A stretch of DNA of 49,376 bases from Synergistaceae bacterium (GTDB taxonomy: Bacteria > Synergistota > Synergistia > Synergistales > Aminobacteriaceae). The position numbers and the translations under genes were made by a program. The DNA lies in the NCBI GenBank assembly GCA_017444345.1, contig JAFSWW010000128.1, positions 1 through 49,376 of the forward strand, written 5' to 3'. This document shows, one piece after another, positions 1-25,052 of the stretch. A model generated the notes under the pieces. That model made no database searches, had not been told where the DNA came from, and was given only the letters and a program-made list of their open reading frames with translations. Within the stretch, counting starts at the first letter, position 1; each line of letters starts with the position of its first letter.

Positions 1-883
1 TATTCATTGAGTGATTAACAATATTTAAGATCGGCTCTGCTAGTCTTTCCCTGACGGAAATTATTTTCATGGTCTCATTAGCTATAAAAATAGGCGCATG
101 AATAGAATTTTTTGAATTCAGGATCTTAATAAATTCTATTCCCTTGCTTAATTGCGATAAACGGCATATAACTTTTTGCCCCTTTGCGGCATAATACAAA
201 ATTTCGTCAATATTTTTATATAAATCATCAGAATATCTGACATAATCGGGCTGTTTTGCATGGAGTCCGCATAAAATCAAAGTGTCAACTTCCAAATTTT
301 GCGGGAGTATATAACCTCCTGTTAAAGCTGTAGAATGCTGCGAATAATCGCCGGTGTAAAGAATTTTCTTTCTTGAAGTCTCAAAATATGTCATCATAGC
401 ACCCGGAATGTGCCCGGCTTGGAAAAATGACACTGTGAAATCATTAAATTTTTTTGACTGCATATAATTTACTTCTGTTATACGCTGTAATAAATATTGA
501 GCTGCGAGTCTTTGTTCTTCCCTATTTATAGCAGCAAAATCATTAAATTTTTTGTCATATAGCTGATACTCTGTTAAAAGTCTTGTAGCTGCTGTCATAT
601 ATACACCTGCATTTGAGGCCGACTGCATGAGCTTTAAAAGATAACCCGTGTGATCTGTATGAGCATGAGAAATAAAAATATAGCCGATTTGATTCAAGCT
701 CAATAAAAAATTAAGATCAGACGTTAGAAGCGGCATAAAATCAGGTTCAAACGTTAAGCCTTTATTTGTGCCAATTCCAGAATCCAGAATAATATTAGAA
801 TTTCCGAGCCTCAAAAAATAACAGCTTGCTCCTACGTGCTGGCCTCCCCCTAAAGGCATAAAATAAATTTCTCTCTCATTCAT
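1..883 (-). CDS. MBL-fold / beta-CASP RNase-like hydrolase, partial
   Basis: An open minus-strand frame runs from ATG at 883 off the left edge, so about 294 residues of the N-terminal part are present and the C-terminus is missing. The start is preceded by an AGAGGA ribosome site at 11-12 bases. The sequence shows the metallo-beta-lactamase zinc signature SHAHTDH near residue 80, a later AGHIPGA segment (a third metal histidine) and YTGDYS (metal-bridging aspartate), and then sequence placed where the beta-CASP insert of CPSF/RNase-J-like enzymes lies. Members of that family cleave RNA or act as exonucleases using two zinc ions in the cytoplasm. The exact subfamily cannot be set without the missing end; a generic MBL hydrolase is the alternative. 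It lies downstream of the NYN gene, separated from it by a terminator. Confidence 0.75.
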   Translation of the reverse strand, partial: MNEREIYFMPLGGGQHVGASCYFLRLGNSNIILDSGIGTNKGLTFEPDFMPLLTSDLNFLLSLNQIGYIFISHAHTDHTGYLLKLMQSASNAGVYMTAATRLLTEYQLYDKKFNDFAAINREEQRLAAQYLLQRITEVNYMQSKKFNDFTVSFFQAGHIPGAMMTYFETSRKKILYTGDYSQHSTALTGGYILPQNLEVDTLILCGLHAKQPDYVRYSDDLYKNIDEILYYAAKGQKVICRLSQLSKGIEFIKILNSKNSIHAPIFIANETMKIISVRERLAEPILNIVNHSMN

Positions 884-945
884 GAAAAAATTTTCCTCTT
901 GAAATTAAGTTCATGAGCATATTATAAATTAGAGATATAAAAATA

Positions 946-963
946 GGGAGAAATGACTCTCCC
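946..963 (-). terminator. Rho-independent terminator after NYN gene
   Basis: Read on the minus strand, a 6-bp stem GGGAGA/TCTCCC with a 6-base loop is followed by TATTTTTATA. It sits 12 bases past the stop of the NYN gene and separates that gene from the MBL-fold gene. Confidence 0.75.
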
Positions 964-974
964 CTCACAAAATT

Positions 975-2468
975 TTAATCTTTCAAAGTCGGCTTATTCT
1001 GAAGTATTGCGCTGCCGTTCTTGGCAAATCCTACATTCATAATAGTTATATATTTCTCTAGGAACTGACTAATTTCTTGATCGGTCATCTTTAAATCAAG
1101 TTTTGACAACGCCCTATTAATCACAGAGAGTAAATTTAACTTGCTTAAATAATTTTCTTCGATTTCGTGTATAACTTCCTGTAAGACTGCTTCTGTTTTG
1201 AGTTCGACATTTCCTGACATAAAATATTCGTCTATATAGAAAAATGGTATGTCGTTATTCTGCAAACGTTGATAATAAGCCTGTCCGCAGTTGTCATATT
1301 CGAGCATGATTAAAAATTTTAATTCGGGCGTTAATTCAATCAAAGGCCAGAAATCGCAATCACTTGAAATTATCACAGCAGAGTCAATCGGGTGGCCTTC
1401 TACTTTGTTTTGAGCGACTTCACGATAAAATTTTATTGTCAAAGCAACATCTACGGCTGATTTCTCATCTTTGACTCTATCAGTCAAATAATATTCAAGC
1501 GGTAAATTTTCGTTGCGCCTCAATGCCCGCCATTGTGAAGAAGTATGCTCATCATCAACGAGTAAAATTTTTGCTATTTTGCCGGTGAGTCCCCTCGCGT
1601 CTAAATCCTTAATTATGCCTATAACTTTGCACGGGTCAGCGTTTTCGCAGTCTATAGCAATAATGACTCTTTCTGAACGTTTAAAGAATTCTTCAGGGTC
1701 AGTGAGTGCCGCGTCGCCTGCGTCTGTTACCTTGCTCATGTCATAGAATCTATCTCGATTGCGTTCGTACAAAATCGGCAAAAATTTCGCGTCGTCCCTT
1801 AAAATATTGCCGTCTCCGTCCGATGGGTACCAGTTTATAAATGCCTGATACGGATATAAATCCCTGTATTCATTATAAGATCTCGCAGCTTCTTTATTGC
1901 CGTCTACAGTATTACCCTTAGGAATAAAGAACATATTACGAATATAGCTCCATTTGATCCATTCAGGGAGAAATTTTTGACAGTTAGGCACATGAGGAAT
2001 CAAATAATTATGTACATCGACAATATAATCTTCAAGTTTTCGTTTTGCCCTGACAAATGGGATCCCGTCCTGCTCAAGAGCCTGCAAAGAATCTTGAGGG
2101 ACTAAATCAGGAATTGAGTCTATATTCTTTAAATCTGAATTCATTTCGGTGTAAATATCGCGGAAATTTCTTTGTAGTTTTGTTCTGAGTCTGCATAAGT
2201 GCCTAACTATACGAGCTTCCTTGTCTTGATTTAATTCTTCATAGACGCTGCGATAAAATTGCGGATTCATGTTATCTAGCTGGCCAAGTCCGAAATATCT
2301 ATCATCAATGCCGAGTAAGTATGCAACTCTTGAAACTATATCCCGTTTTGATCTCGGTGCTGCCTCAGTGGGCAATTTCAACGCCGTAGTTGGTAAATTC
2401 TCCGAAAAATTTTGTAAAGATGCCCTCTTGCTGTCATCAAGAAGGCTGCCTATGCTGAAATCACTCAT
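975..2468 (-). CDS. NYN/PIN-like domain putative RNase
   Basis: A 497-residue soluble protein. The C-terminal half (about 268-410) has the acidic constellation of NYN domains: AIDCEN (Asp 273), a DEKSAVD stretch near 335 and SSDCDFW near 370, set in alternating hydrophobic strands. NYN domains are PIN-like metal-dependent endoribonucleases acting on structured RNA in the cytoplasm. The first 260 residues are charged and mostly helical in character and I do not recognise a family there. Start ATG 2468 has only a weak ribosome site, and the leader holds a 7-bp inverted repeat. An RNA-processing role is supported by the fold; the substrate is unknown. The neighbouring beta-CASP-like gene suggests an RNA-metabolism pair, but a terminator separates them. 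Confidence 0.7.
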   Translation of the reverse strand: MSDFSIGSLLDDSKRASLQNFSENLPTTALKLPTEAAPRSKRDIVSRVAYLLGIDDRYFGLGQLDNMNPQFYRSVYEELNQDKEARIVRHLCRLRTKLQRNFRDIYTEMNSDLKNIDSIPDLVPQDSLQALEQDGIPFVRAKRKLEDYIVDVHNYLIPHVPNCQKFLPEWIKWSYIRNMFFIPKGNTVDGNKEAARSYNEYRDLYPYQAFINWYPSDGDGNILRDDAKFLPILYERNRDRFYDMSKVTDAGDAALTDPEEFFKRSERVIIAIDCENADPCKVIGIIKDLDARGLTGKIAKILLVDDEHTSSQWRALRRNENLPLEYYLTDRVKDEKSAVDVALTIKFYREVAQNKVEGHPIDSAVIISSDCDFWPLIELTPELKFLIMLEYDNCGQAYYQRLQNNDIPFFYIDEYFMSGNVELKTEAVLQEVIHEIEENYLSKLNLLSVINRALSKLDLKMTDQEISQFLEKYITIMNVGFAKNGSAILQNKPTLKD

Positions 2469-2480
2469 AATTTATAAATA

Positions 2481-2525
2481 CTGCTGCGAGATATATTTTT
2501 ATAGCCGCCCTAACTTTTGCAGCAG
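2481..2525. promoter_or_regulatory. Inverted repeat in the NYN gene leader
   Basis: CTGCTGC at 2481-2487 and GCAGCAG at 2519-2525 are perfect inverted repeats 31 bases apart, just upstream of the NYN start at 2468. They could form a hairpin in the 5' leader or an operator. An RNA-binding product next to a structured leader would allow autoregulation, which is only inference. Confidence 0.35.
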
Positions 2526-2633
2526 ATTATTATTTCACTCCTTTATGTAATATATAATATATTTATTCTTGTTAAGGCTGACTGTAAATAATTAATAATT
2601 TTATCTATTACCCCCCTTTACATGAATATTTTA

Positions 2634-3527
2634 TTATAATGACCTCCAACTCTTAAAGCCCCGCCCTAATACTTCTGAAGCGTCGCAAATTGATACAAAT
2701 GCTTTATCATCATGTTCACGTAAAAAACGCTTGAGCATTATTACATGTCTGGGCTCTAAAAGTGTTAATAAAACCGGTCTGGGCTGGCCTGTATAGCCTC
2801 CTTTACCCTCAAGTCTCGTTACTCCCTTGCCTAAATCAGTTATGAATTTGCTTACTTCGTCGGGAATATTTGTGATTATAAATGCCTGCTTGCGTTTATC
2901 AAAACTGTGAGTAATATTATCAACTGTAACGCCGTTCACATATAAGCCGACAATCCCGTAAACTGCTGACTCAAGACCTATAACGCCTATTGAAAGCGAA
3001 ATTATTACGAGATTCAGAATTATAGAAAATTTGCCGATCTCTATTCCGTGTCGTTTACGCAAAGCAACAGCAATTATATCTGTCCCGCCTCCTGAGCCTC
3101 CAACGTTCAACATCAAGCCGCCCGCAAAGCCTTTTATTAATCCCGTAATAACAGTAGCCATGAATTTGTCATCAGGTAGAGGCAGCGGAAAATTTGCGAA
3201 AATCTGCAGTCCCGTCGAAAATGTAAATATCGCCGTTAAAGTCAAAGCAAGAAATCTCACTGTCAAATCACGCCATGCCCATATGACTAATAAAATATTT
3301 CCGGTCAAGATTACCCAGTTCGGCGAAATTCCAAACATGTAATTAGTAAGTACTGCTATACCTGACACGCCTAAATCAGGAAATTTATAATGCAGTGTGA
3401 AATAATTTACAGCAAAGGCCTGAAGAAGACTCGCGAAAATTATGACAAGTACTCCCTTCCAGTCCTGTTTGATTGCGTCAAAGATTACGGCAAAGAATGC
3501 CCGGAAAAATTTTTTCATGTTATTCAT
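2634..3527 (-). CDS. YitT family membrane protein (DUF161 + DUF2179)
   Basis: The start is placed at ATG 3527 (MNNMKKFF), because GGGAGG lies 13 bases upstream; the longer frame up to 3662 would run through the terminator at 3652-3679 and makes the protein longer than the family. The 297-residue product has about five to six membrane spans in the first 200 residues, with a glycine-rich GGSGGGTDI motif typical of YitT proteins. A cytoplasmic C-terminal domain of about 80 residues (DUF2179, with the segment KGVTRLEGKGGYTG) follows. The function of this widespread family is unresolved; a transport role is assumed. It appears to be a single-gene unit. Confidence 0.85.
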   Translation of the reverse strand: MNNMKKFFRAFFAVIFDAIKQDWKGVLVIIFASLLQAFAVNYFTLHYKFPDLGVSGIAVLTNYMFGISPNWVILTGNILLVIWAWRDLTVRFLALTLTAIFTFSTGLQIFANFPLPLPDDKFMATVITGLIKGFAGGLMLNVGGSGGGTDIIAVALRKRHGIEIGKFSIILNLVIISLSIGVIGLESAVYGIVGLYVNGVTVDNITHSFDKRKQAFIITNIPDEVSKFITDLGKGVTRLEGKGGYTGQPRPVLLTLLEPRHVIMLKRFLREHDDKAFVSICDASEVLGRGFKSWRSL

Positions 3528-3651
3528 TCGTGCGGTGATTCCTCCCTTGAAATAAAAATATAATTTTGCACGTGTAATAATATTAGCACAGATATATTTT
3601 TGCTTTATAAAATTTGCATGAAATATTACGAAAAATTTTGCGAAAAAATAA

Positions 3652-3679
3652 CCTCCTGCCATTGTGTCATAACAGGAGG
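3652..3679 (-). terminator. Rho-independent terminator after the 1383-residue protein gene
   Basis: On the minus strand CCTCCTG pairs with CAGGAGG (7 bp) and is followed by TTATTTTTTCG. It lies 15 bases beyond the stop at 3694. Confidence 0.8.
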
Positions 3680-3693
3680 CCGGGCGAATTTAT

Positions 3694-6600
3694 TTATTTG
3701 CTGACAAGAATAACAGGCGCATAAATTATATCTTTATTCAGCCACGCAGAGACAATAATTAATTTATTTTCCGGGACTGTAAAAATTTCTTGGCCTGATT
3801 CGTTATAGAATTCAGCGATTGAGTCATCTTCTGAAGGCTCATGATTTTGCGGACATGCCAGCCAGTATAATTTTGAGTTAATTTCTGCGTTCTCGTCTAG
3901 TTCGATTTCAAGTTCATAGAGACCGCTTTTATTAACGTGAATCTCAGGCAATACAGCAGCAATTATATAATCATCAGAAATATTTATATTGATAGAATTA
4001 ATATCACGTTCAGGGCCTATAAATAAATTCTCGTTTGAGCTAATAATTTTTTCAGGCTCGTTAATAATTTCTGATTCAAATTTTGAGCTTGAGTCCGATT
4101 CTGACTCGTCATTATTTGCAAGAATTGAATTTTGCGGAGTTATATATGCTTTTTTCGGGTCAGGATTATTATTTATTATGAGCGTAAAATTTTTACTCGT
4201 CTCACGTTGCGAATATTCAGCGGGAATCTTGCTATTATAAGCAGTAACAGTAATATTATATTCCCCCGGTGCCGCAGTCGGAGTCCCTGAAATTTTGCCC
4301 TTGCTAGAAATTTTTAAACCTGCCGGGAGATTATCAGCGCGCCACTTTATAGTTTTGTCGCCGGTTGCTGTGAGAATCGCATTATATTTTGTCTTGTAAA
4401 TTGCTTCAGGAAGTGAATCACTTGTAATTACAGGCGGATTATAGATTTGTAAGGAAAATTTTTTCTTTGCGGTTTTGCCCGAACTGTTAGAGAGATTTAT
4501 ATTAATCTTGAATTTTCCTGATTGATTAATAATTCCTGAAAGAATACCAGTTTTTACGTCATAGCTCATGCCTTCAGGGAATCCCGTAAAATCCCAGCTC
4601 AAAGGGGGCGTGCCTGTTCCTGTGCAGGAAATTATATAATTTTCGCCGATTATTGCAGATTTGAGTCCGTAATTATTTATTGAAGTTATTGCGGGTTTCT
4701 CGGCTGTTATCTTAAGCGTTAATTTATTAGCAGATTCTCCGGCGGCATTTGTAGCAATTATAGTAATTTTGCCGTTAAAGCCTTGAGTCGGAGTCCCTGA
4801 AATTATGCCGTTTTCTGAATCAAATTCAAGTCCGGGGGGTAATATTTCTTTAATGCTCCATGTGATAGGCTCTGACCCCTTAGAAATTTTTAACGGTGAT
4901 GAGCGATATTCTTTATAAACGTAGCCGGCTAGTAACTTCCCGGAGAACTTAGGCAAGACGGGATTTATTACAAGCGAGAAAGTTTTCTGTATTGAGTCAT
5001 TCCCATTTGAGGCAGTAATAATTATATTCTCAAAATTGCCGTATTCTTTAGGAGTGCCTGAAATTTTGCCGGTTGACTCGTTAATTGCCAGGCCGTCGGG
5101 AAGATTCGCAGCTTGCCATGTTAAAGATTTTGCGCCTTTTGCCTTGAGTGAAAAACTATATTTTTTGCCGTCAGTCCCGTTTTTAAGAGTCATTGTAGTG
5201 ATTTCGAGTGAAGCTCCTGACGCATTCACAATAATAGTAAATTTTTTCGAGGCCGAGTCAGTCCCGTTTGACGCAATAATAATAAATGTATAATTGCCTG
5301 ATTTCGTAGGAATGCCGCTTATAATGCCAGACTCGTTAAAATCAAGTCCCGGGGGAAGTTCGTCCGTGTGAGACCATTTTATATTATTTTCTGAGGCTTT
5401 GAGAGTAAAATTATATTTCTTCCCTGTGAATGCTTTATCAAGAGACTCCGTTATAATTTGCAAGTCTGACTCATTATCATCATAAACAATAGCGGGGCCG
5501 ACTGTAATATTTATTGACTCGGTTAAATTCTTAAATTTTGCTGTTAATGTCGTGCTACCTTCCTTGAGTCCATAAATACAGCCGTTATCGTTGACTTTTG
5601 CAAATTCCGTTGAAGTCCATTCAGTGCCGTTTAATGGCGATGATATATCGTAATAATTCCCGTTTTCGTCAATTGCGTAGAGTCCCGCGGGAGTCTCTGA
5701 GTCCTTATTTGTATAAAGTGTTGAATCTCCATTAAAATCAAGTTTGACTATATTTATATTATTTAAATCATTAAGCGCAACAACCTGCACAACATTTGAA
5801 ATATACATGCTTGTTCCGTCTGAATTATTAGGATTTTGCGAGAAACAAGAAATATTTATCATTCCTGTATCCTGACTTGTAAATTTAATTTTTGCTTCAA
5901 ATTTTGTGCTGCTTTTGCCATTAGCAGGAATCGTGAAAAGATTAAAATTTCCGCCGTTCACAATAGAGAAATATATATCATGCGATATAGATACTTGACT
6001 TGTTACTGTGAGATTTACAATTTGAGTATTTCTCTCAGAAAGTTTAAATACTGCCGGTTCTGCTTTTAGTGTAAGTCCGTCTATAAAGTTAAATTTTCCT
6101 GTCGTTATATTTTGTTTTGCTGCTAATATTTTGCTGATTGTTGATTTTGATGATTTTAAAGCATTTGCACCCGCTCCGAAAGTTTTAAAGCTGATTTTAC
6201 TGCCTTTCAAGAGTAATGCTACCTCGCAGCCTACATCTCTTTGTTTGCAAATTTCCCAGTGCCCGTGATCTATTTTTAATAGCGTTTCTTCTAACGGACT
6301 TAATAAATCATCAGCGTATACACTGCTATGTCCGGCGAAATCCCCCGCTGCACTTGTTCCGGATATTATTGTGTCGTGTGCTTGACTTGAAAAAATTACA
6401 TTTGCTGCAACATATGAAAATATTTTCATGAATGGAAGTATATTATCAATTATGAAAATTGCGGCGTTCATTTTTCCGGCCAGTTTGGGAATATATTTTT
6501 TTATTGCTCTCGGTATATGAAATAAAGCAACGGACTCTAAATCCGTGAATTCTACAGCGTCAATATTAATATTATCGCCTTTACTCCATCCGAATTTGAA

Positions 6601-13167: not shown

Positions 13168-14597
13168 ATGAGAAAATTTGCGGTTTATGTATTAATTCTT
13201 GCGTTGAGTTTAGTTATAAATTCGTCTGTATGGGCTGCTAATTTGTCTGTTCGTATTGATGCGGCGCATTTTCCTGATCCTCATTTTCGCGAATATGTAA
13301 AATATTTTGACTCGAACGGAGACGGCATATTGAGCGATAAAGAAATTGCAGCAGTAAGATCTATCTCTGAAGGAGGTTATGATGTGCTAAGTCTTGCAGG
13401 CATTGAATATTTTACGAATCTTGAATATTTAAGTACTGGTACCTCCCCCAATCTCACAAAATTAGATGTCAGTCGTAATACAAAACTTAAAGAACTTAGA
13501 ACAAGTAGCACTAATCTAATAGAGTTAAATATAAGCGGCTGCACAGAACTTCAATATTTAGAGTTATATGCAAAATTAAGCAACTTGGATTTAAGTAACT
13601 GCAAAAAACTTCAATATTTAAGTTTAGAAGTACATGAGATAAGCAACTTAGATTTAAGTAACAGCAAGGAACTCATAAAATTAAGCATAGTTAGTCGTAA
13701 TTTAAATCATTTAGATCTTAGCAATAATATAAAACTTCAAGGCTTATATTGTAACTGTTATAGTAGCTGTTATAATAGAGGCAATTTAGATAACTTAGAT
13801 CTGAGCAGAAATACAGAGCTTCAATCTTTAGGATGTAATTACAGCAAAATAACAAAATTAGATCTGAGTAATAATAAAAAATTAACTCATCTCGATATTA
13901 GTCATAATAGCATACAAAACTTAGATCTTAGTAATAATATAAATCTTCAATATTTGCAGTGTATAAGCACAAGTCTAGATGTATTAGACCTGAGCAATAA
14001 TATAATTTAGTATCTCTTGATATTAGACCTAATTTGAGTGGTAACAGCACATTAACACAACTCATCATTGATAATTGCAGAGCATTAAAATATCTAAATT
14101 GTTATTGAAATAAACTTAAATACTTAGATTTAAGCCGCAGCGTAAATTTAAAAGAGTTACACTGTGGCGGTAATAAACTCAAAAATTTAGATGTAAGCTG
14201 CAATGTAAATTTAAAGTATCTAAACTGTGTTTATAATAAAATCAAATACTTGGATGTAAGCCGTAACGTAAATTTAGAAGATCTTTACTGCAATAATAAT
14301 AATATGGCTGAACTAGATCTCAGTAACAATAAAAAACTTGCTTGTGTTACATATAGCCCCCAACATTTATATATAAAATTTAAACTGGGGAGTTTCCATT
14401 CAAATGAGTATAGTAAATGGGCGTATTTTCCTGATAACCCTTATCAACGTACTTATTACGACCCCGATAATCCCTCCGTTATGCTCTATAAATATTATTA
14501 TCTTCAACGAGCTGGATTTGTATATCTCTTGACTCTGCGGGAATGTCTCCTGATTTTATTTGCGAGTCAATTCTATTTATTGCTGCCCTCAAATTAA
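13168..14597 (+). pseudogene. Secreted EF-hand + leucine-rich-repeat protein, frameshifted and interrupted
   Basis: The gene starts well: AGAGGAG, ATG 13168, a signal peptide ending SSVWA, an EF-hand-like calcium loop DSNGDGILSDKE near residue 50, then repeats of about 21-23 residues with LDLSNNxxLxxL cores. The first frame ends at TAG 14008-14010. LRR coding continues in another frame from about 14016 (LDIRPNLSG...), so one indel lies between about 14000 and 14016. That frame meets an in-frame TGA at 14106-14108 in the middle of a repeat, and LRR sequence resumes to about 14340. The final 110 bases run antisense into the 3' end of the convergent subtilase gene, and no normal C-terminal domain is seen. 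Such proteins are usually surface adhesins; this copy is decaying. Confidence 0.8.
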
Positions 14598-16006: not shown

Positions 16007-16432
16007 TTGCAGGAATTCAAGCAATTAACACGCACCCGAGTCAGATATTCAGAGACCGACAAAATGGGAGTCGCCTATCACGCAAATTATTTTAACTGGT
16101 TCGAGATGGGACGGAGCGATTTATGCAGGGCAAACGGCAAAAGTTTCGCACTCTGGGAAGACGAGGGAATATTACTCCCAGTTGTAGAAGCTCATTGCAG
16201 ATTTAAATCATCACTCTTTTATGAGGACGAAATTATAATCGAGACGACTATATCAAAACTTTCACGGGTTAGCGTAACTTTTTCATGCAAAATTTTTAAT
16301 GCGAACTCTAATAAATTAGCCGCAGAAGGTTACACAAAACACGCTTTCACTTCCAAAGACGGCAAATTATTACGTGATGGCAACGCGCTCGAGTCATGGC
16401 TCAATGAACTATTAAGCAAATATGAATCATAA
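16007..16432 (+). CDS. Acyl-CoA thioesterase, YbgC/4-hydroxybenzoyl-CoA thioesterase family
   Basis: 141 residues, a single hot-dog fold. The N-terminal active-site motif RYSETDKMGVAYHANYFNWFE matches the YbgC family, with the catalytic Asp in ETDKMG and the HANY segment. These cytoplasmic enzymes hydrolyse short- or medium-chain acyl-CoA thioesters. The start is TTG 16009-16007 read forwards at 16007, supported by a strong AGGAGGG at 15992-15998, 8 bases upstream; no ATG is available nearby. A shared bidirectional terminator follows. In Proteobacteria ybgC sits with the Tol-Pal genes; no such genes are seen here. Confidence 0.85.
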   Translation: MQEFKQLTRTRVRYSETDKMGVAYHANYFNWFEMGRSDLCRANGKSFALWEDEGILLPVVEAHCRFKSSLFYEDEIIIETTISKLSRVSVTFSCKIFNANSNKLAAEGYTKHAFTSKDGKLLRDGNALESWLNELLSKYES

Positions 16433-16441
16433 TAATAAAAT

Positions 16442-16467
16442 CCCTCCGGCCGTGAATGACCAGAGGG
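16442..16467. terminator. Bidirectional terminator between thioesterase and hpf
   Basis: CCCTC (16442-16446) pairs with GAGGG (16463-16467), extended by GG/CC after one mismatch. A T-run follows on the plus strand and a T-rich stretch on the minus strand, so it can stop both converging genes. Confidence 0.75.
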
Positions 16468-16490
16468 GAATAATTTTTTTTTGCGTAAAA

Positions 16491-17024
16491 CTAGCTTATC
16501 GGCTCTAATAAACCGTAACCGCTGCTCTTGCGTTTATAGACTACGTTAATTTCTCCCGTCTCTGCATTCTGGAACATAAAGAAAGCATGTCCGACGAGTT
16601 CCATTTGCATAATTGCCTCGGCTGTGTCCATTGGGTGAATCTGGACTTTCTTAACTTTGTCGATTACGGGCGTATTTGTGTCAGGTTCGGGGACTTCATC
16701 AAGACTGAAGGAAAAATCTTCACCTGCTCCGAGCTGTGCTCTGTCTTTGAGATAAGAATTATATTTCTTGATTCTGCGCTCAAGATTCTTTAAAGACTGG
16801 TCAAATGCTTTTCTCGGTTCTAAAGCGTCTTCTTCTGCCCGCAAAATTACTCCGTTTGCATTTGCTGTAGTCTCTACGTTGAAGCTGCCCTTGTGATGAG
16901 ACACGACGATTTGACAGTTAAGAATCTTCCTGAAAAATTTTTCCATGCGGGAAATCTTTTTCTCCATATATTCCCTGAGCTTGTCATCGATTTCAGCTCC
17001 GCGCTGTACAAAGCGAATTTCCAT
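16491..17024 (-). CDS. hpf: Ribosome hibernation-promoting factor, long form
   Basis: 177 residues. The N-terminal RaiA/HPF domain (1-100) begins MEIRFVQRGAEIDDKLREYM and holds the basic RRIKKYNSYLKDR helix. The C-terminal domain (about 120-177, beginning near VKKVQIHPMDTAEAIMQMEL) is the dimerisation part found only in long HPF. Long HPF binds the 30S decoding site and joins two 70S ribosomes into inactive 100S dimers in starved cells. AGGAGG lies 10 bases before ATG 17024. A TATAAT-like element lies upstream, between this gene and the dehydroquinate-synthase-like gene, so it may have its own promoter. Confidence 0.95.
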   Translation of the reverse strand: MEIRFVQRGAEIDDKLREYMEKKISRMEKFFRKILNCQIVVSHHKGSFNVETTANANGVILRAEEDALEPRKAFDQSLKNLERRIKKYNSYLKDRAQLGAGEDFSFSLDEVPEPDTNTPVIDKVKKVQIHPMDTAEAIMQMELVGHAFFMFQNAETGEINVVYKRKSSGYGLLEPIS

Positions 17025-17069
17025 GATTGCAGCACCTCCTGAAAATATTTGATAGTATTATATTACATT

Positions 17070-18137
17070 TTAAACCTTAATGCCTGCATAAATAAATGAT
17101 TCTAGCTCGTGTAAATTCATTTCGCGCAAAATATAATTTCCGTTATCAATAGGCAAAGCAAATTTTATGCTGTTATCATGAGCCTTTGAAGCCCGCATAA
17201 TTTCTCGTGAAATAATTTCAGCTTTCAAATCTCCCATATAATTCACCGGCAAATTATTTAATTTTAATGCGTTTATGATTCTTGCTGATATATTCTCGCT
17301 GAAGATTTTAAGTTTTGCGCCTGCCTTAGCTGTTATTGCTGCACCCTGAGAAATTGCTATATCATGACTCACACGTCCGCCTGAAAATCTCTCTATTGCG
17401 TTACCTATTGCGCGCGCTGTATTCTGAAATCTTTTATTTCCGCCCTCGTCAAAACATTCCATGCGAAATTTTATACAAGCGTCTATTACTCGATCTATAT
17501 TTACGCGTAAATCTGACTGATTCAGAAAAAACCGCAGAATTTCACTGCCTGTCATTATAGCAATACTTAGGGACTCGGCAATACCTGATTTATATTCTTT
17601 TTCCGGGAGTGTTGCTAGACAGTCGGGATCGCAAAGAACTAGCGCGGGTTGATGGGTTATTCCTGCAATATGATAGCCTGAAGTCAAATTTAAATCCGCC
17701 CGGCCTCCCACTGAAGTCTCAATCATGGCGCGCAAAGTAGTCGGGACAAATATAATTTTTACTCCGTGCATATAACAGCCTGACGCAAAGGCCGCCGAAC
17801 TGCAAACGCTCATCCCGCCCAGTGCAATAACGCAGCATTTATCACTAAGGCCAAGCCCTGCCATATCGTCAAAAATTTTCGTGATGGGCTGATCAGGTTT
17901 TACAAGTAATTCGCAGATTCTGAGCTTCATTCCTTCAGGTCTAGGGCATTCCTGAAAATTTGTTATTACGCGCTGTAAATATAAGCTCGAAATATTTTCG
18001 TCAGTTATTAATGCTATCTCGTTGTATTTTTCCGCGCAGATTCTTAGAGTCTCAAGTCCGAGCCGACCCGTCAAACCTCTTTGAATCTTGACCGTATAAT
18101 TTCCTGTTAATGTGTTAATTCGTAGTGATGCAGGCAT
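17070..18137 (-). CDS. Dehydroquinate-synthase-like protein with degenerate active site
   Basis: 355 residues, aligning end to end with AroB (FVPTTL, SVGG, a GLAE-like GIAE, LPV near the C-terminus). Key positions differ: the NAD loop GGGVVGDL reads GGMSVCSS (about 107-114), GGKTAVN reads GGRADLN, GKNMIGAF reads SGYHIAGI, AEVIKYG reads AESLSIA (catalytic Lys lost), and GHTFGHAIE reads ARAIGNAIE (both His lost, including a zinc ligand). The zinc Glu in GIAE and one His (SHDIA) remain. It therefore probably cannot convert DAHP to dehydroquinate, and could be a pseudo-enzyme or act on something else. The reading frame is intact with normal neighbours' codon use. A terminator lies just upstream, so it starts its own unit. 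Confidence 0.75.
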   Translation of the reverse strand: MPASLRINTLTGNYTVKIQRGLTGRLGLETLRICAEKYNEIALITDENISSLYLQRVITNFQECPRPEGMKLRICELLVKPDQPITKIFDDMAGLGLSDKCCVIALGGMSVCSSAAFASGCYMHGVKIIFVPTTLRAMIETSVGGRADLNLTSGYHIAGITHQPALVLCDPDCLATLPEKEYKSGIAESLSIAIMTGSEILRFFLNQSDLRVNIDRVIDACIKFRMECFDEGGNKRFQNTARAIGNAIERFSGGRVSHDIAISQGAAITAKAGAKLKIFSENISARIINALKLNNLPVNYMGDLKAEIISREIMRASKAHDNSIKFALPIDNGNYILREMNLHELESFIYAGIKV

Positions 18138-18166
18138 TTAATACTTCACTCCCCTACATATAAAAA

Positions 18167-18204
18167 TATCACCCTCCGAGCATTCGACTGTTCAGAAGGT
18201 GATA
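18167..18204 (-). terminator. Rho-independent terminator upstream of the dehydroquinate-synthase-like gene
   Basis: On the minus strand TATCACCTTC pairs with GGAGGGTGATA over 10-11 bp, followed by TTTTTATATG. It lies 30 bases before the start at 18137, so any transcript from upstream ends here. Confidence 0.75.
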
Positions 18205-18434
18205 AATTTCTTTGATTGTCCTAAAAAATTTATTAAGTGCTTTATACTCACTGACTCAGCCGAATCAAATTAAGCTCCTGATAATACCAATACCAGCAGC
18301 TAAAATTAAAGCTAAAATATTCGGTTGTATTGAGTCTTACTTTTTGCACTGTAAAAATTTTCTCCCAATTAACAAAATTTCAAAACGAGTGAATCATTAC
18401 ATAACCGCCCGTAAATGTCAAGCAAAAAAAAAAT

Positions 18435-18456
18435 CCCCCGCCGTGATTGACGGGAG
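18435..18456 (-). terminator. Rho-independent terminator of the giant Ig-repeat gene
   Basis: On the minus strand CTCCCGTC pairs with GGCGGGGG (8 bp with G-U pairs, loop AATCAC), followed by a run of eleven or so T residues broken by one A. It lies 28 bases past the stop at 18485. Confidence 0.85.
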
Positions 18457-18484
18457 ATGTGTTAATTAATTGCTAAAGTCTGAA

Positions 18485-21400
18485 TTATTCTGATTGAGCC
18501 TCTGTTGAAGTCTCTTCAGGTTTTGATTCGTCATTAGCTGGCTCTTCTTCGGCTGGAGTCTCTGTTGTAGTCTCTTGATTCTCTGCGGGTGCTTCCGTAG
18601 TCTTGCCTTCTTCATCAAGTACTATTTCTTCAGTGGACTCTTCGCCTTCTTTTGCTTTCTCGACTGCTTCATCGAGTCCTTCTTCGCTGACAACATCGCC
18701 GGGTGCTGCCTCGCTGACTTTCGCGACAATAACAGGAGCATATTTCACGCCTTCACGGAGCCACGGGTAAACTAATACAATGTGATCTGCCGGGACGGTT
18801 GTTGTGTCTGCGCCGTCAATGTCAAAGAAGTCCGCTATCTCGTCATCTTCAGAAGGTGCCGCAGGTGATTGCGGGTAAGCCAGCCACTTTAATTCAGAGC
18901 CTGCCGGTACATCTGCAAGTAAATCAACTTCGAGTCCATATTGTCCGTCAACTGTTGCAGAAATTTCCGGAAGAATTGCTGCGATCATGTAGCCTTCTGC
19001 TTTGATTGCTGCCTTCTGCTCGTCAGTGAGTGCCGAGTCTGTTCTCTCTGCACCGATTGAGAGATCGCCCTCGCCGAGTTCCTTCGTGAGTTCTTCCTCG
19101 ACAAGCTCATCAGTCTTCTTATCAGTCTCGTGTAACTCTGCAGTCTCTTCGTCTATCTTGTCTTCTTCAGTGTCAGGATCTTCATCATCTGGATCGACTA
19201 GATCATCGGCACCAGTGAATACAATATCAATCGAGATCGGATCAGACATTGATACGTGCTTATTGCTCTTATTCGTTGCCGAGACCTTGAATGACGTATG
19301 TATCTTTGATAAATACTTACCGTCGCTCTTCATTGGCATTGCGTTCTTCTTGAGAGTCGCCGATAACGTTACGCTATCTTTAGCCTTCTCTGTAATCTTG
19401 AGAGTAACTCTGCTGTCAGGTTTCGTTACGATCTTCCAGGTCGGGACATCAGTAGCCTCTTTATCAAGTACGAGCTTGATATTCTCTACTGTTACAGCCT
19501 CATTGACTTTGTATTTATCGTTAAGTTCGCCCGTAATTGTTACAGGAACAGTCAAGCCGCTGTCAGGACTCAAGAGTGCTATAGGATCTAAGACGATAAT
19601 TTTAACGCTGAGATATGCCGTCGCTCCGAAGTGATCAGCTGAAACCTTTATAGTTTGTCCCTTAGTGCCTTTATCCGGGGTTCCGGTGATTACTCCGTTT
19701 GTGCTTATCGCCATAGACGAACCTAACGCTTTTAATTTCGTATTTTCCGCAGTATCAAGTGTCATCTTCATGTCAAGACTTGCAATGCCCTGAGCCTTTA
19801 TGGTGCGTAAATCTTCACTCATAACTTTGCTGGCCGCGGCTGTAACGTCGAGATCACGCGTCAATGTAAATTGCTTCGTGCTGCTGTCAAGTTTCGGTTT
19901 GCTGCCTGTAATCTTAACTTTTACGAGTGCATTATCTTCGCCGGCATCGTTGGAGACATTGATCCAAATATTCATGAAGTCCGCGCCGCCGGTGTCCTTA
20001 CTTGTAACTTTCTCAGGAGTTCCTGTGAGTGTCCCCTTTACAGGATCCATTGTGATACCGAATATAGATTTAATCTCGTCAGCGTTTAACTCTATTCCTA
20101 ACGGTATATCACCACTTGAGATTGCCCATGTCGCCGTCTTGTCTGCAGGGTCAAGAGTTCCCTTAAGGCTTAATTTCTTGCCTGTCTGTATTGTTTTACC
20201 AGCTGCAAGAGTTGTCTTATTGCCGATATTCGGCTTCTGCTGGGCTGTCAATTGTACGTTGACCTTTTCGCTCTTACCTGTTGCGGTATTCTTTGCCGTG
20301 AATGCAATTTTATTTGAGCCCGGTTTCTTGTTACTGTTATTTGCGGCCGTGTAAGAAATTTTAACATTGGGATTCGGGTTTGCTTCCGATGAAGTTATAG
20401 CTACACTTATTCCACCAGGAAGAGTCCCATAAGTTATTTCCAGCGGTAAATCGCCTGAAACATTCAAATCAACAAAGTTAGCTTTGTTTTCATCAAGATT
20501 GTATGTGATCAAAGTCTGTTCAACTTCTGATTTGCCCTTAGTGCCGCTTCCGAGTGTCTTGCCGGATACGTCAACAGCACTATCACTATCAATATCGCCT
20601 GACAGCCACACGGGAGATATTCCATCAACAACGATTGTATATGTCTTTGTCGCTGCGCCGAGTCCGTTATCTGCCGAGACAGTTACTTTAATGCCCTTGT
20701 GTAAAGGAGTATCTGCAATCTTAGTGATTGTAATATTTTCACCGGAGTCGCTGCCCATTTTGAGGCCAAATCCAGTTACATCTTCTGCTGAATTCTTGTT
20801 TAAGTCAATTTGCTCGCCGTTATTAAAGCCTGCTGCTTTAGCGTCGCTTGCCTTGATGTAAGCTGCCCACTCTATAGTAGGAGAACCTGTAGCCTCGATT
20901 GTTACAGAGCCTTCTGCCGTTGTCAGTTTGTCAATTTTTGAGGTCGTGATCTTGACTTTATCGCCCTTGATCTTGAACGTCAAATCTTTGCTGACAGTGC
21001 CGGCAACATTATGTGCCCATACTCTAACAGTTTGCTCTCCTGCAGCTACTTCAATCTTTCTGCCTAATTTAAGCTCAAGAACACCCTTAGTGTTAGTTAC
21101 TGCATCCGCAGATGTTATAGCTGTGTGGCCTGTTAAAGTCGTTTCGCCGTCTATCTCTGCTGCGTTGTCGTATGCTTCTACACTCGGAAGACTGACTCTC
21201 CACTCCTGTGCACCTTCGCCGGTAACTGTTACGGTGTCGAATTTGCCGATCGTTAAATCATTGAGCTTGCTTGTCTTAATCGTCGGTACGGCATATACAT
21301 TAACGCCCGTGAGTTTTGCTGTTGCAGACGGCTTAGCTGATGAGTCCTGATCCTGTGCTGTAATCTCTACAGTTGAGTTTGTAGCAGATTTTGTGAATGT

Positions 21401-23689
21401 TCCGGAGATTTTAGCTTCTCTGTCGCCGCTCATCTTGAGAGTAATTCCGCCCGGAAGTCCCTTAGCAGAGAACTTTGTAGCACCTGAATTTGGATCAGCA
21501 TTATAGACGAGTATATCAAGCGTATCGCCGACCTTTAAGTCACCAGAGAAAGGAGTCCCTTCGTCCTCATCATATTCGACATAGTCATTGCCGCTCTTGA
21601 CCTTATAAGCAATCACAGGAGTCGGAGCTGAAATATTGAATGTCAATTTAACATCAGTATGTCCTGCGCCGTTATGTGCTCTGATTGTAGTAGAGTAACT
21701 CTTGGCCGGTGCTGAAGGAGTTCCGGTAATTTTTACGGTCGATTTAAGACTACTCTTTGTCGGCGTTAAAGTCTTCGTTTCAGTGTCAGCCGTATTATCT
21801 TCGTCGCTAGCGTCAACAAGTTCAATACCATTGGGCAGCTTGTCATAACTCCATACGATATTGCCGGGTGCTGATGCCTCAAGTTCAATAGTAGCAGTTA
21901 TTGCACTACCAGCCGCTAATTTAGCATTATCTATCTTAGTCTGTGCTGATTTCTGGTTCTTGCTGGTATTCTCGAATGCCGGCTTTACAGTGCTAATTGT
22001 GATACTGCGCGACACTGTCGGGATTGTATCCGCCGGGAAGACATCACAGCTAAGAGTAAACTCTAAATTAAGAGTTACAGACTCGTTATCGCCAAATCCG
22101 TCTACTACATCATCATCAGCTCCAAGTGCCGTCTTAAGCGCACTAACATGAGCGTAAGTGTTAAATGTGCCTGTGAGTTTATTTGACGATATGCTCAAGA
22201 ATGAAGGCAGGGAAGTATTCCCATCATCGCCCATGACCTCAGCTTTCAAAATTGAAGCCGGGTGACTCTTATTTCCGCCGTCTAATGTTATTGATGTGCC
22301 GGAGTATGTTTTGCCGAAAGTCATAGCAGTAAGTCCTTTTTCGAGCGTAGGACTCTTTATACTGGGAGCAGCAAGGACTGTTAATGTGTATTTTGTCCCG
22401 TTGTTCTTCACGTTATAAACAGTATTTGACGGCGTTACAGTGATATTGAATGTCCCTGATTCTGTCGGGTTTCCTTCAAGTACGTAAACAAATTCAGTAA
22501 TTTTTACAGTAAGATTATCGCTAACTGTAGTATTTGTCTCGTCAAGCGTGAACGTGAGTCCAGCCGGGATAGTATCAATTTTGAGAATCTCCTCTGATTC
22601 TTCAGCTTCAGGAATTGCTGTTGTCTTGTTAGTCTTGAAGTAAATTCTGACAGCAGGTGTTTCCTCGTCGGCCTTTTTCTTGATTTTCTCGCCCTTGACA
22701 GATTCGTCCTCTGTCTCGCTGTCTTCGATAGTAATAGGATATGTGCCGAGATCAGTCCCTGATAATTTCTTTGCGTCTATACTAGCAACATGAACGGATT
22801 CAATTTTCGGAGCAATGGCCGTAAATTTCAGCGTGAAATCCCTTGTAACAACTGTCGAGCCGTCGTGTGCTTCTGCGTATTCCTCAGTTTTTGTGTAGTC
22901 GTTGTAGGTCGAGACCCTGAATTTAACAGTCTTATCAATGGGAGTAGGAGACGCTACTTTATCAGCTGCGAGAACTAATGTACTGTCGCCGCTCATTTCT
23001 GCTGTGATTCCGTAAGTTCCCGAGAGTTCTTCACTTGATAAGTAAACTACGCTGTCATCATCGTTCTCAATCTCATCAGGATCAACGATCGAAATATTTA
23101 CATACTCGCCTTCGTCTACGTCATAATTGTCCGTTGCTGTTATTGTAGCACTGAATGCACGCCCGTGAACAACTTGAGGCATTGTAGGGTTAGAGATTGT
23201 AGGTGCACTTGTTGAGGGGGCATTAGTCACCTTAACCTTAAGTGTTGCGCTTGCCGTGTTTTTTACTGTACCTGTCTGGCTGGATCTTGTAACTACAAAA
23301 GATACTGACCCTACTTTATTTGGAGTACCGGTTATTTTAAGAACGGCATGATTTGCGTCAGTCTGTGTTACTGAAACAGTAAGGCCGTTTCCTAAAGAGT
23401 AATCAGCAGTTTGTAGAGGTTGATTGTTTGCAATTGCAGCTGCACCTATGGATATATAACATGCTGCCAAAGCACCGTTAGAATTACCATAACCTAACGT
23501 TATTCCATTAAAATCATCAGGTAATTCTGTAGTACCATTAACTACAGAAGTATATTCATATCCATCTGCCGCTTTGCCTTCAGTATCAGACTCGAGAATA
23601 CATAAGGCATTTGGGAGTTTCGCCCATGCAGCCGAACACGTCAGCATAAAGCACAATACAAAAAATAGACTAAATATGCGTTTCTTCAT
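18485..23689 (-). CDS. Giant secreted Ig-repeat surface protein
   Basis: 1734 residues with a clear signal peptide (MKKRIFSLFFVLCFMLTCSAAWA) and AGGAGG before ATG 23689. The body is a series of about twelve to fifteen beta-sandwich modules of the He_PIG/cadherin-like kind, with recurring LPxGIxL, SGTF/TGTP and VSADNGAG-type strands. Near residues 1570-1650 is a domain shared with the 1383-residue protein (MIAAILPEI, SEDDEIADF, YAPVIVAKV). An acidic tail of about 70 residues rich in Glu, Thr and Pro follows, with no sorting signal or membrane anchor. It is probably exported and surface-associated or released; a binding or matrix role is inferred. Base composition is visibly more GC-rich and less repetitive at third positions than its neighbours. 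Confidence 0.8.
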   Translation of the reverse strand: MKKRIFSLFFVLCFMLTCSAAWAKLPNALCILESDTEGKAADGYEYTSVVNGTTELPDDFNGITLGYGNSNGALAACYISIGAAAIANNQPLQTADYSLGNGLTVSVTQTDANHAVLKITGTPNKVGSVSFVVTRSSQTGTVKNTASATLKVKVTNAPSTSAPTISNPTMPQVVHGRAFSATITATDNYDVDEGEYVNISIVDPDEIENDDDSVVYLSSEELSGTYGITAEMSGDSTLVLAADKVASPTPIDKTVKFRVSTYNDYTKTEEYAEAHDGSTVVTRDFTLKFTAIAPKIESVHVASIDAKKLSGTDLGTYPITIEDSETEDESVKGEKIKKKADEETPAVRIYFKTNKTTAIPEAEESEEILKIDTIPAGLTFTLDETNTTVSDNLTVKITEFVYVLEGNPTESGTFNITVTPSNTVYNVKNNGTKYTLTVLAAPSIKSPTLEKGLTAMTFGKTYSGTSITLDGGNKSHPASILKAEVMGDDGNTSLPSFLSISSNKLTGTFNTYAHVSALKTALGADDDVVDGFGDNESVTLNLEFTLSCDVFPADTIPTVSRSITISTVKPAFENTSKNQKSAQTKIDNAKLAAGSAITATIELEASAPGNIVWSYDKLPNGIELVDASDEDNTADTETKTLTPTKSSLKSTVKITGTPSAPAKSYSTTIRAHNGAGHTDVKLTFNISAPTPVIAYKVKSGNDYVEYDEDEGTPFSGDLKVGDTLDILVYNADPNSGATKFSAKGLPGGITLKMSGDREAKISGTFTKSATNSTVEITAQDQDSSAKPSATAKLTGVNVYAVPTIKTSKLNDLTIGKFDTVTVTGEGAQEWRVSLPSVEAYDNAAEIDGETTLTGHTAITSADAVTNTKGVLELKLGRKIEVAAGEQTVRVWAHNVAGTVSKDLTFKIKGDKVKITTSKIDKLTTAEGSVTIEATGSPTIEWAAYIKASDAKAAGFNNGEQIDLNKNSAEDVTGFGLKMGSDSGENITITKIADTPLHKGIKVTVSADNGLGAATKTYTIVVDGISPVWLSGDIDSDSAVDVSGKTLGSGTKGKSEVEQTLITYNLDENKANFVDLNVSGDLPLEITYGTLPGGISVAITSSEANPNPNVKISYTAANNSNKKPGSNKIAFTAKNTATGKSEKVNVQLTAQQKPNIGNKTTLAAGKTIQTGKKLSLKGTLDPADKTATWAISSGDIPLGIELNADEIKSIFGITMDPVKGTLTGTPEKVTSKDTGGADFMNIWINVSNDAGEDNALVKVKITGSKPKLDSSTKQFTLTRDLDVTAAASKVMSEDLRTIKAQGIASLDMKMTLDTAENTKLKALGSSMAISTNGVITGTPDKGTKGQTIKVSADHFGATAYLSVKIIVLDPIALLSPDSGLTVPVTITGELNDKYKVNEAVTVENIKLVLDKEATDVPTWKIVTKPDSRVTLKITEKAKDSVTLSATLKKNAMPMKSDGKYLSKIHTSFKVSATNKSNKHVSMSDPISIDIVFTGADDLVDPDDEDPDTEEDKIDEETAELHETDKKTDELVEEELTKELGEGDLSIGAERTDSALTDEQKAAIKAEGYMIAAILPEISATVDGQYGLEVDLLADVPAGSELKWLAYPQSPAAPSEDDEIADFFDIDGADTTTVPADHIVLVYPWLREGVKYAPVIVAKVSEAAPGDVVSEEGLDEAVEKAKEGEESTEEIVLDEEGKTTEAPAENQETTTETPAEEEPANDESKPEETSTEAQSE

Positions 23690-23792: not shown

Positions 23793-23880
23793 TCATTCGG
23801 CCTGACACTGATTAAATAATTCAGGCGTAGCACCCCTATTGTGAGGGATGGCGGATTCTCGCAAAGCCCGGAGAAATATT
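23793..23880 (-). ncRNA. Candidate omega/re-RNA region at the tnpB 3' end
   Basis: Two hairpins overlap the end of tnpB on the minus strand: CATCCCT/AGGGGTG (23831-23850) and GCCTGA/TCAGGC (23800-23826), the second ending 5 bases from the stop codon. TnpB nucleases use a guide RNA whose scaffold overlaps the 3' end of their own gene, and this layout fits. The element's right end and hence the guide sequence cannot be fixed here. Confidence 0.35.
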
Positions 23881-25052
23881 CCCCGCGCACCGTTATAATC
23901 ACGGTCTAGTTTGATATTGCCGTCTCTAATAAATTTCTTACCCGGAGACTTTATTTCGCCGTTCCATGAACATGTTTGCGAGGTCCAGTCTTCATTTTGC
24001 GCGATAATTTTCCGTCCGTACTGCTCGGCTTTTGTCCTGATGAAATCATGGAATCCCCTGTGAGCCCGATTGATTACTTCTCTCACCGTGCGCGAGTAAA
24101 ATTTTCCTGTTATGTCCGGCCTGAATTCCGGAAGTGCTATAACATCAAAATTTTTAACGATGAATAATGCAGTCTTACGGGTTAACTCGTCAGTGAGATT
24201 GATGATTCTCCAGTAAAGCCGCTCTGCCGCCCTCTTCATTTTTACGCGCTGCCTGTGATTTGCCTGCGACATTCTGAAATATAAATCATCGAGATAAACG
24301 CACAGACTGTAAATTTTTGAGAAAGCATTACGGCCGATTTTGCCGCACGAGTCAAGACTGTAGAACGTCATGAAATTTCTAATGCCCGGATCAAGAGAGA
24401 CCGCGCGCCCTTGCTTATCGGACGCAATAGAAATTTTTACGGGTACGCAGATAAACCATTGCCCAGATTCATAAATGAGTTTGCAATTTCCGTCGGGCTT
24501 GGGAATTTCTCCCGAATGAGTCATATTCCCTAAGAAATGCGTATAAATGCCGCGATTATTCACTGATGATTTAGGAATCTCAAGAGTTTGCTTTGCGTCT
24601 CGTCTGGCTCTGAAATTTGCGCCCCCGTTGTGTCGTGAAGTCATATAGGCATCATGAACAGCGAAAGATTTAATCTGTGAGGGAACATTCTGCGCCCATT
24701 CCGGTAAATCTTGCATTAACGAGCGTTTAATCTCTAGCCAGTCCGAATTATTGCCGCTTGAAAGAAATTCAATCGTGCGATTAAACATGTAACGAGCAGT
24801 GCCCAGCCATTGATTTAATATATCCTGCTGTCTTGAGTCAGGGTAAAGGCGAATCTTCTGCGTTGTCTTATAAGCTGCGTTAAACGGGAGATAATGACAC
24901 TCAGACTCGAACCAAGAATTATTTATATTTGAGTATATGTAATTAGAAGATTCATTGTTGAGCGAGTCTAAAATCTCATCACGAGGCAGCCATAAAGAAC
25001 GCGATAAATGCGCACATGTCTCGTCCCAGTACCCGCGATTAAATTTTTTCAT
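23793..25052 (-). CDS. tnpB: TnpB (IS200/IS605-IS607 OrfB) RNA-guided nuclease, no TnpA
   Basis: 419 residues. An unusual 62-residue N-terminal extension precedes the normal TnpB start (KTTQKIRLYPDSRQQDILNQ). The RuvC triad is present: Asp 221 in SLDPGIRNF, Glu 309 in LPEF, Asp 383/385 in KLDRDYNGARG. The zinc finger is decayed: TSQTCSWNGE keeps one Cys and the second CxxC reads RDGN, so three of four Cys are missing. TnpB proteins are RNA-guided DNA nucleases that help IS elements persist. No TnpA transposase is nearby. Its ATG overlaps the TGA of a 40-codon ORF (ATGA), so the two are co-translated. It could be a dispersed IS remnant or a retained host gene. Confidence 0.85.
   Translation of the reverse strand: MKKFNRGYWDETCAHLSRSLWLPRDEILDSLNNESSNYIYSNINNSWFESECHYLPFNAAYKTTQKIRLYPDSRQQDILNQWLGTARYMFNRTIEFLSSGNNSDWLEIKRSLMQDLPEWAQNVPSQIKSFAVHDAYMTSRHNGGANFRARRDAKQTLEIPKSSVNNRGIYTHFLGNMTHSGEIPKPDGNCKLIYESGQWFICVPVKISIASDKQGRAVSLDPGIRNFMTFYSLDSCGKIGRNAFSKIYSLCVYLDDLYFRMSQANHRQRVKMKRAAERLYWRIINLTDELTRKTALFIVKNFDVIALPEFRPDITGKFYSRTVREVINRAHRGFHDFIRTKAEQYGRKIIAQNEDWTSQTCSWNGEIKSPGKKFIRDGNIKLDRDYNGARGIFLRALRESAIPHNRGATPELFNQCQAE

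Follow-up and report, generated by a model that had tools for sequence, protein, structure and literature searches.

Why would a bacterium keep a gene for a dehydroquinate synthase (DHQS, or AroB) whose catalytic residues have been replaced? The question is raised by a gene on a contig from a Synergistaceae bacterium (JAFSWW010000128.1, from assembly GCA_017444345.1). We analyzed the entire contig of 49,376 nucleotides, which we will call the window. A first-pass annotation had reported that the whole AroB fold could be followed in the encoded protein, that its catalytic motifs were replaced in an intact reading frame, and that this selective loss suggested a new function or a regulatory role, not random decay.

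The AroB-like protein and its relatives

The AroB-like gene (Table 1) has no internal stop codon. Its product matches PF01761 (75.5 bits; cut-off 24.2) and, towards the C terminus, DHQS_C (31.6 bits; cut-off 27.6). We predicted the structure from an alignment of the protein with 55 relatives (mean pLDDT 93.4, pTM 0.91). The top solved match to the model was the DHQS 5eks_A (Z = 38.5 over 341 residues, VIA-align), and Foldseek found the DHQS 3okf_A (E = 1.8e-24), so the predicted structure bears out the claim about the fold. This fold superfamily also includes glycerol dehydrogenases, and GldA aligned to the model with Z = 26.5.

Table 1. Features around the AroB-like gene, in the order of transcription
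Feature	Position in window	Strand	Details
Intrinsic-terminator-like hairpin, bounds the unit after the upstream gene	18433..18458	-	10-bp stem and T run; consensus match only
Promoter-like sequence of the attenuator-controlled unit	18393..18421	-	TTGACA-17-AATGAT; consensus scoring
Leader peptide	18248..18349	-	MQKVRLNTTEYFSFNFSCWYWYYQELNLIRLSQ; GTG start; 9/33 residues aromatic
Hairpin 1:2, within the leader coding region at Trp-Tyr codons	18273..18301	-	
Antiterminator, 5' strand	18255..18265	-	AUUCGGCUGAG; pairs with 18182-18190
Antiterminator, 3' strand (terminator loop)	18182..18190	-	CAGUCGAAU
Attenuator terminator hairpin and T-rich tail	18157..18203	-	arms 18191-18203 and 18168-18180
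AroB-like pseudo-dehydroquinate synthase gene	17070..18137	-	355 aa; ATG start
TATAAT box within the 45-bp gap, probably a second promoter, for hpf	17057..17062	-	
hpf/YfiA, ribosome hibernation-promoting factor	16491..17024	-	177 aa; TIGR00741 60.1 bits (cut-off 40.9)
Intrinsic-terminator-like hairpin after hpf, closes the unit	16442..16467	-	consensus match only

We assigned roles to residues (the metal ligands and the substrate/catalytic set) according to what we take to be the consensus of the AroB literature. All of the reported replacements are present in the window protein: the NAD loop reads GGMSVCS where canonical enzymes have GGGVxGD, the lysine of SVGGK is Arg146, the lysine of AExxK is Ser191, and GHTxGH has become ARAIGN (Arg242 and Asn246), with both histidines gone. 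VPTTL and SVGG are retained, also as reported. Two of the three metal ligands are still there (Glu188 and His258), while the position of the third, His242, is the arginine just mentioned, and only 1 of the 12 substrate/catalytic positions matches. For the AroB equivalog TIGR01357, the protein scores 147.3 bits and is below the cut-off of 305; two other members of its family reach 198.9 and 184.7 bits, and a canonical AroB (L008) reaches 335. It is not a member of TIGR04425 either (AroB-related phospholyase; 92.4 bits, with 400 needed). By these function-defining tests (equivalog score, metal ligands, and substrate/catalytic residues), the window protein is not AroB. It resembles AroB in its whole fold, its descent from Synergistaceae aroB, its Glu188 and His258, and, in most members of the family, its NAD site. 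It differs by its low score, by the missing metal ligand and most of the substrate/catalytic residues, and by the position of its gene outside any shikimate operon.

We examined 43 genomes from the genus, counting that of the window; the gene is present in 31 and absent from 12. The protein is full length in 28 of these carriers, has 236 amino acids in two (G007 and G020), and is cut by the end of the contig in one (G016); the reading frame is open in all 31. The 236-residue form is the N-terminal part, without the C-terminal part, and ends before His258. In a tree of 65 proteins, the 31 family members form one clade (support 100/100, stem 0.84) that lies within the Synergistaceae AroBs, beside the canonical AroB of G019 (90/63).

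All 28 full-length members have lost the lysine of SVGGK and both histidines of GHTxGH, as well as the equivalents of Arg124, Arg235, and Asp316. Among the relatives, the columns for Lys146, His242, and His246 are conserved in 36/36, 35/35, and 35/35 canonical proteins and in 0/28 of the AroB-like family. A scan of genome contigs retained 80 AroB loci, and the 78 that lie outside the family all keep these three residues; the only two with losses (L111 and L112) are from genomes that were already in the genus set (G010 and G008). Across the family, just 1–4 of the 12 substrate/catalytic positions and 1–2 of the 3 metal ligands match, versus 12/12 and 3/3, along with 9/9 NAD-site positions, in five comparison proteins. 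Lys191 is kept in 24 of the 28, Glu188 in 26, and His258 in all 28, and 24 of them match at 8–9 of the 9 NAD-site positions. Only the window protein and its closest full-length relatives (L059, L060, and L061; 4 of the 28) have lost the NAD loop and the lysine of AExxK, with 4–6 NAD-site positions remaining. So the description of a selective loss holds throughout the family for the SVGGK lysine and the two histidines, but the loss of the NAD loop and the AExxK lysine is particular to this subclade. Because the substrate/catalytic site is lost family-wide and the NAD site only in the subclade, the loss of the substrate/catalytic site came before that of the NAD site. The erosion of the NAD site also argues against NAD binding in the window's subclade. 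On the evidence of the tree and the alignment, the DHQ-synthase residues of a canonical Synergistaceae aroB were lost a single time, in an ancestor that belonged to the genus.

The family alignment has 42 invariant columns, and some family-specific invariant residues arose, such as Cys75 and Cys112. (The cysteines in the protein include Cys64, Cys75, and Cys112.) In nine pairs of family members, dN/dS was 0.065–0.138, with bootstrap upper limits of at most 0.241; the eight canonical aroB pairs that were computable, out of nine tried, gave 0.065–0.205. For the truncated pair (G007 and G020), dN/dS was 0.083 (confidence interval 0.017–0.241). Several pairs have large dS, so their ratios are approximate, but pairs at low divergence (dS of 0.11–0.68) are in line with the others, and saturation is therefore not the cause of the low ratios. 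These ratios indicate strong purifying selection on the protein ever since its catalytic residues were lost. Relaxed selection and frameshifts, which the first-pass annotation had named as evidence that would count against its proposal, were not seen.

We also compared the presence of the gene to a tree of rpoB (46 rows, without G007, G008, and G037, where rpoB was unmatched or too short, and without G047). The pattern of presence and absence needs seven changes, which is best read as a single origin followed by multiple losses. Given that 12 of 43 genomes lack it and that it was lost repeatedly, the gene is dispensable. G019 and G038, which have the pathway, branch first in the rpoB tree; G015 and G025, which have neither the pathway nor the AroB-like gene, are next; and the carriers come after. 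The window's subclade (five members) is the sister of the other carriers, as it is in the AroB-like tree.

The leader upstream of the gene

The promoter-like sequence and the aromatic-rich leader peptide that precede the AroB-like gene in the window have counterparts throughout the family. The promoter scored at least 9/12 in 29 of 30 loci (L060 scored 8; a different site scored best in L051 and L056). A homologous leader rich in Phe, Tyr, and Trp is found in each of the 30 loci in which this region can be seen, and 273 of its 931 pooled residues are aromatic, versus 7.8% in open reading frames of at least 250 amino acids from the same loci. In the other two frames, the counts are 70 and 95 for aromatic codons and 65 and 86 for stops. 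(The leader frame was anchored on a conserved TGG, choosing the most aromatic anchor, so it is free of stops by construction.)

RNAalifold, unprompted, placed both hairpin 1:2 at the Trp-Tyr codons and the terminator hairpin. In the terminator helix, 98.8% of the cells in the alignment are paired, and 4 of the 12 pairs have two-sided changes. We proposed the antiterminator by hand, as a pairing of the stretch at the end of the leader with the loop and 5' arm of the terminator; 91.4% of its cells are paired, versus 23–56% when the strands are slid, with two-sided changes in 4 of 14 pairs. We considered that the hairpin might be a mere terminator of the preceding gene and rejected this because the preceding genes differ, with some facing the opposite way, and because a separate terminator-like hairpin precedes the promoter in the window. 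A search of Rfam over 16400–18600, with E up to 1, found no family that matches the attenuator; the sole match, a weak L10-leader at 18418–18570, is below its gathering score and lies off the attenuator. As judged from these conserved and covarying elements, the promoter, leader peptide, and antiterminator/terminator make up a ribosome-mediated attenuator.

To find related elements, we built a covariance model (R1) from 28 leaders and ran it over 71 genomes. R1 matches the window at 18161–18318 (107.7 bits) and finds every carrier whose leader is visible (30 genomes; 28 of these matches are expected by construction). Outside the training set, it matches G037 (63 bits, E = 3.5e-9) and G021 (51 bits, E = 9e-7). 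In these two genomes, the leader precedes tyrA (prephenate dehydrogenase), aroA, aroC, pheA (prephenate dehydratase), and a shikimate-kinase-like gene (the kinase was scored in G037 only), and a chorismate mutase gene lies upstream of the leader. Six further matches are weak (29.9–32.1 bits, E = 0.008–0.018), and three of these are the opposite strand of known sites. There were no matches among the 28 genomes from outside the genus in the 71-genome search. In G053, from a neighbouring genus, R1 scored 43 bits before aroF-tyrA-aroB-aroA-aroC-pheA-aroEK-aroQ, with a canonical aroB. The leader peptides are MMWKFNRTAGYFSYRYFSFTCFGKACLCLADTRRN in G053 and MKNINLFAVEYFYYFSRWYCFSGLDCVRLR in G037. R1 was unmatched in the stretches of G019, G038, and G047 that we examined, though both the pathway and the closest canonical aroB are present in G019.

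Because the element heads aromatic operons in G037, G021, and G053, we identify it as an aromatic-operon attenuator, and we infer that it responds to aromatic amino acids. For the same reason, the AroB-like gene appears to be the survivor of a dismantled operon. The leader does not seem to have been inherited from directly before a canonical aroB: in the 700 nucleotides upstream of 17 non-family loci, we found no convincing aromatic reading frame (L012 and L042 have one dubious one each), and in G053 the leader precedes aroF, two genes ahead of aroB. The G053 operon has a similar leader and the parent type of the AroB-like gene; it differs in its complete pathway, in its canonical AroB residues, and in that hpf is unlinked in the stretch that we read.

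Known ribosome-mediated attenuators include the trp, phe, and his leaders. Like them, the leader described here has a promoter, a peptide with many of the residues that are sensed, an antiterminator and a terminator that exclude each other, and a T run just before the first gene. Every feature of an amino-acid attenuator for which we ran a test is seen in the sequences: the aromatic leader, the terminator, the antiterminator, and the biosynthetic relatives. The differences are that this leader controls a putatively non-catalytic protein, in species from which the biosynthetic pathway is missing, and that its antiterminator pairs with the terminator loop.

The aromatic pathway and the neighbouring hpf gene

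The window's genome is 96% complete in 141 contigs, and absences from such drafts can be assembly gaps. We found no second aroB in it: its one PF01761 match is the AroB-like gene. Among all the carriers, only G034 has a second AroB relative (L042; G034:C20:7500-17500, gene at 4245-5318), with no second PF01761 match in the other 30. L042 has all 24 scored residues and is very divergent (TIGR04425 306 bits versus 400), and is perhaps another sugar-phosphate cyclase. Chorismate synthase (aroC) was not found in the window's genome and is present in 4 of the 43 genus genomes (G019, G021, G037, and G038); aroA is above its cut-off in 3 of the 43. In the window's genome, a weak match to aroA is MurA instead, and a match to DAHP synthase is KdsA. 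Type II dehydroquinase was found in none of the 43 genomes and type I in 18, which do not include the window's. The window's organism probably cannot make aromatic amino acids itself. The first-pass annotation had counted a genome with no other aroB, if the protein proved active, against its own proposal. There is indeed no second aroB, but the downstream pathway is missing too, so its lack is no argument for activity.

AroE-like matches are found in 35 of the 43 genomes. We considered the AroE-like gene in the window's genome (L208 = G000:C86:8000-15500, 570-3910) as a sign of a live pathway. However, we take its neighbours to be a TRAP-type transporter subunit, an HMG-CoA-lyase-like gene, and a TIM-barrel gene (which has no match in NCBIfam), and given these neighbours, a catabolic role, with quinate or shikimate, looks likelier. 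The aromatic operons in G021 (L212, 135-5398) and G037 (L213, 1921-7263) have the leader and lack aroB; AroE is encoded elsewhere in both genomes, as is type I dehydroquinase in G037. These bacteria may feed the pathway with quinate or shikimate that they scavenge. In the rpoB tree, G021 is nested among the carriers.

In 30 of the 31 carriers, the next gene on the same strand after the AroB-like gene is hpf, which encodes a long-form HPF/YfiA (TIGR00741), while the outer neighbours vary. The commonest family of upstream genes occurs at 12 loci. (In the window, the upstream gene at 18485–23689 encodes a secreted-looking protein of 1,734 amino acids without a match in NCBIfam, and about 12 loci of the genus have a relative of it ahead of the AroB-like gene. 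Farther out, an open reading frame at 23793–25052 resembles an IS605-type TnpB, with a relative at a similar place in L044. On the other side, a leucine-rich-repeat-like protein at 13168–14597 is apparently split into two reading frames, 13168–14010 and 14250–14597.) The gap between the AroB-like gene and hpf is 36–83 bp in 28 of 30 loci and is 310 and 340 bp in L050 and L057, where the extra length is probably due to insertions. We found no terminator in this gap in the window, so transcription probably reads through from the AroB-like gene into hpf.

A TATAAT-like box lies in the gap before hpf throughout the genus. The exceptional carrier is G013, whose AroB-like gene and hpf lie on different contigs, beside other genes; it keeps the leader and the AroB-like gene even so. 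Given this separation and hpf's own conserved promoter-like box, the link to hpf may be positional only. At ten hpf loci from genomes of the genus that do not carry the AroB-like gene, we found no remnant of it beside hpf (the locus in G023 is cut by the end of the contig and is uninformative). In G026 and G028, both the C-terminal domain of HPF and the AroB-like gene were unmatched, which could be a joint loss or a single assembly gap.

Competing explanations and a proposed role

Could the gene simply be a decaying relic, the last gene to leave after the pathway was lost? The repeated losses would fit, as would the NAD site, which has eroded further in the window's subclade, the same C-terminal truncation in G007 and G020, and the absence of other aro genes from the window's genome. 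But every frame is open, dN/dS is as low as for canonical aroB (even for the truncated pair), dozens of columns are invariant, some of them in ways specific to this family, and the promoter and attenuator are conserved upstream. Simple decay is not tenable, and we consider a relic of any kind very improbable. Slightly less credible still is that the protein is a passenger, with selection acting on the attenuator because it places hpf under the control of aromatic starvation. This would be consistent with the near-constant adjacency of hpf, the lack of a detected terminator between the two genes in the window, and the tolerance of truncation in two species, but it seems inconsistent with strong purifying selection on the protein and with G013, which keeps the leader and the gene with hpf elsewhere. 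We give almost no credence to a working DHQS with unusual residues. The fold, Glu188, and His258 are retained, and the window's genome has no other aroB; yet all 28 full-length members lack the SVGGK lysine and both GHTxGH histidines, and the product would have no evident use, as DHQ dehydratase, aroA, and aroC were not found in the window's genome. Furthermore, PMC7144000 describes His275 of the Aspergillus enzyme as the proton acceptor and also mentions a phosphate pocket.

The main rival to a regulatory or scaffold role is that the protein is an altered enzyme: an NAD-dependent dehydrogenase or lyase that acts on another substrate by means of Glu188, Lys191, His258, and the NAD site. Most members keep these residues, and the glycerol dehydrogenases share the fold superfamily. 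However, the metal ligand His242 is lost in every full-length member, the window's subclade has neither Lys191 nor the NAD loop and is still under selection, and the 236-residue form stops short of His258. We consider this explanation unlikely, though less so than the three above.

Instead, we propose that the AroB-like protein is a retained pseudoenzyme from a dismantled aromatic operon, that it is controlled by the attenuator, and that it has a non-catalytic role in the starved state (probability roughly 0.7). The proposal of a new function or regulatory role thus gains support from the single clade in 31 of 43 genomes, the open frames, the low dN/dS, and the conserved promoter and attenuator. 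That the protein is kept as something other than a DHQS seems to follow from its sequence and that of its relatives; what it does at the molecular level is our suggestion. As an indicator of expression during starvation, we also considered whether the protein is depleted in aromatic residues, but at 5.1%, versus 6.2% for canonical AroB from the relatives and 5.9% from other phyla, it is not special.

We suggest that aroB moved out of the operon, taking a copy of the leader along, and came to lie ahead of hpf, and that most lineages lost the other genes of the operon. By analogy with ribosome-mediated attenuation of amino-acid operons, as described in PMC9413887, a shortage of charged aromatic tRNAs would stall the ribosome at the leader's Phe, Tyr, or Trp codons. 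A stretch of the RNA close to the leader's stop codon would then pair with the loop and 5' arm of the terminator, and with this antiterminator formed, transcription would continue into the AroB-like gene and then into hpf. With aromatic amino acids in good supply, the ribosome would reach the stop codon, the terminator would form, and only hpf's own promoter would work. The least certain step is that the AroB-like protein, which ancestrally bound NAD, might act without catalysis in the starved state, as a regulator or a scaffold and possibly together with the hibernation machinery. More specifically, we speculate that in these aromatic auxotrophs, uncharged Phe, Tyr, or Trp tRNAs switch on the pseudo-DHQS and hpf together, that ribosomes thereby hibernate specifically when aromatic amino acids are lacking, and that the pseudo-DHQS tunes HPF or another partner. 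We regard this fuller scenario as tentative and more doubtful than not, and a partnership with HPF is conjectural.

Our literature searches turned up no apparent published account of the AroB-like gene or its leader, and nothing apparently related in a search on hpf with a leader peptide and attenuation. We know of no HPF unit that is headed by an aromatic attenuator or by a pseudo-DHQS. What is new here is the aromatic attenuator before the AroB-like gene in all 30 visible loci. It suggests that an operon was dismantled alongside the loss of its pathway, and that one gene and the amino-acid sensor outlived it and were kept for a use outside the pathway. With some forty species that show the dismantling at various stages, this is a testable case of how a pseudoenzyme originates and of a starvation sensor that outlives the pathway it served. 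If hpf is indeed part of the response, then the leader would be a direct, cis-acting link, free of transcription factors, from the shortage of specific amino acids to the hibernation of ribosomes.
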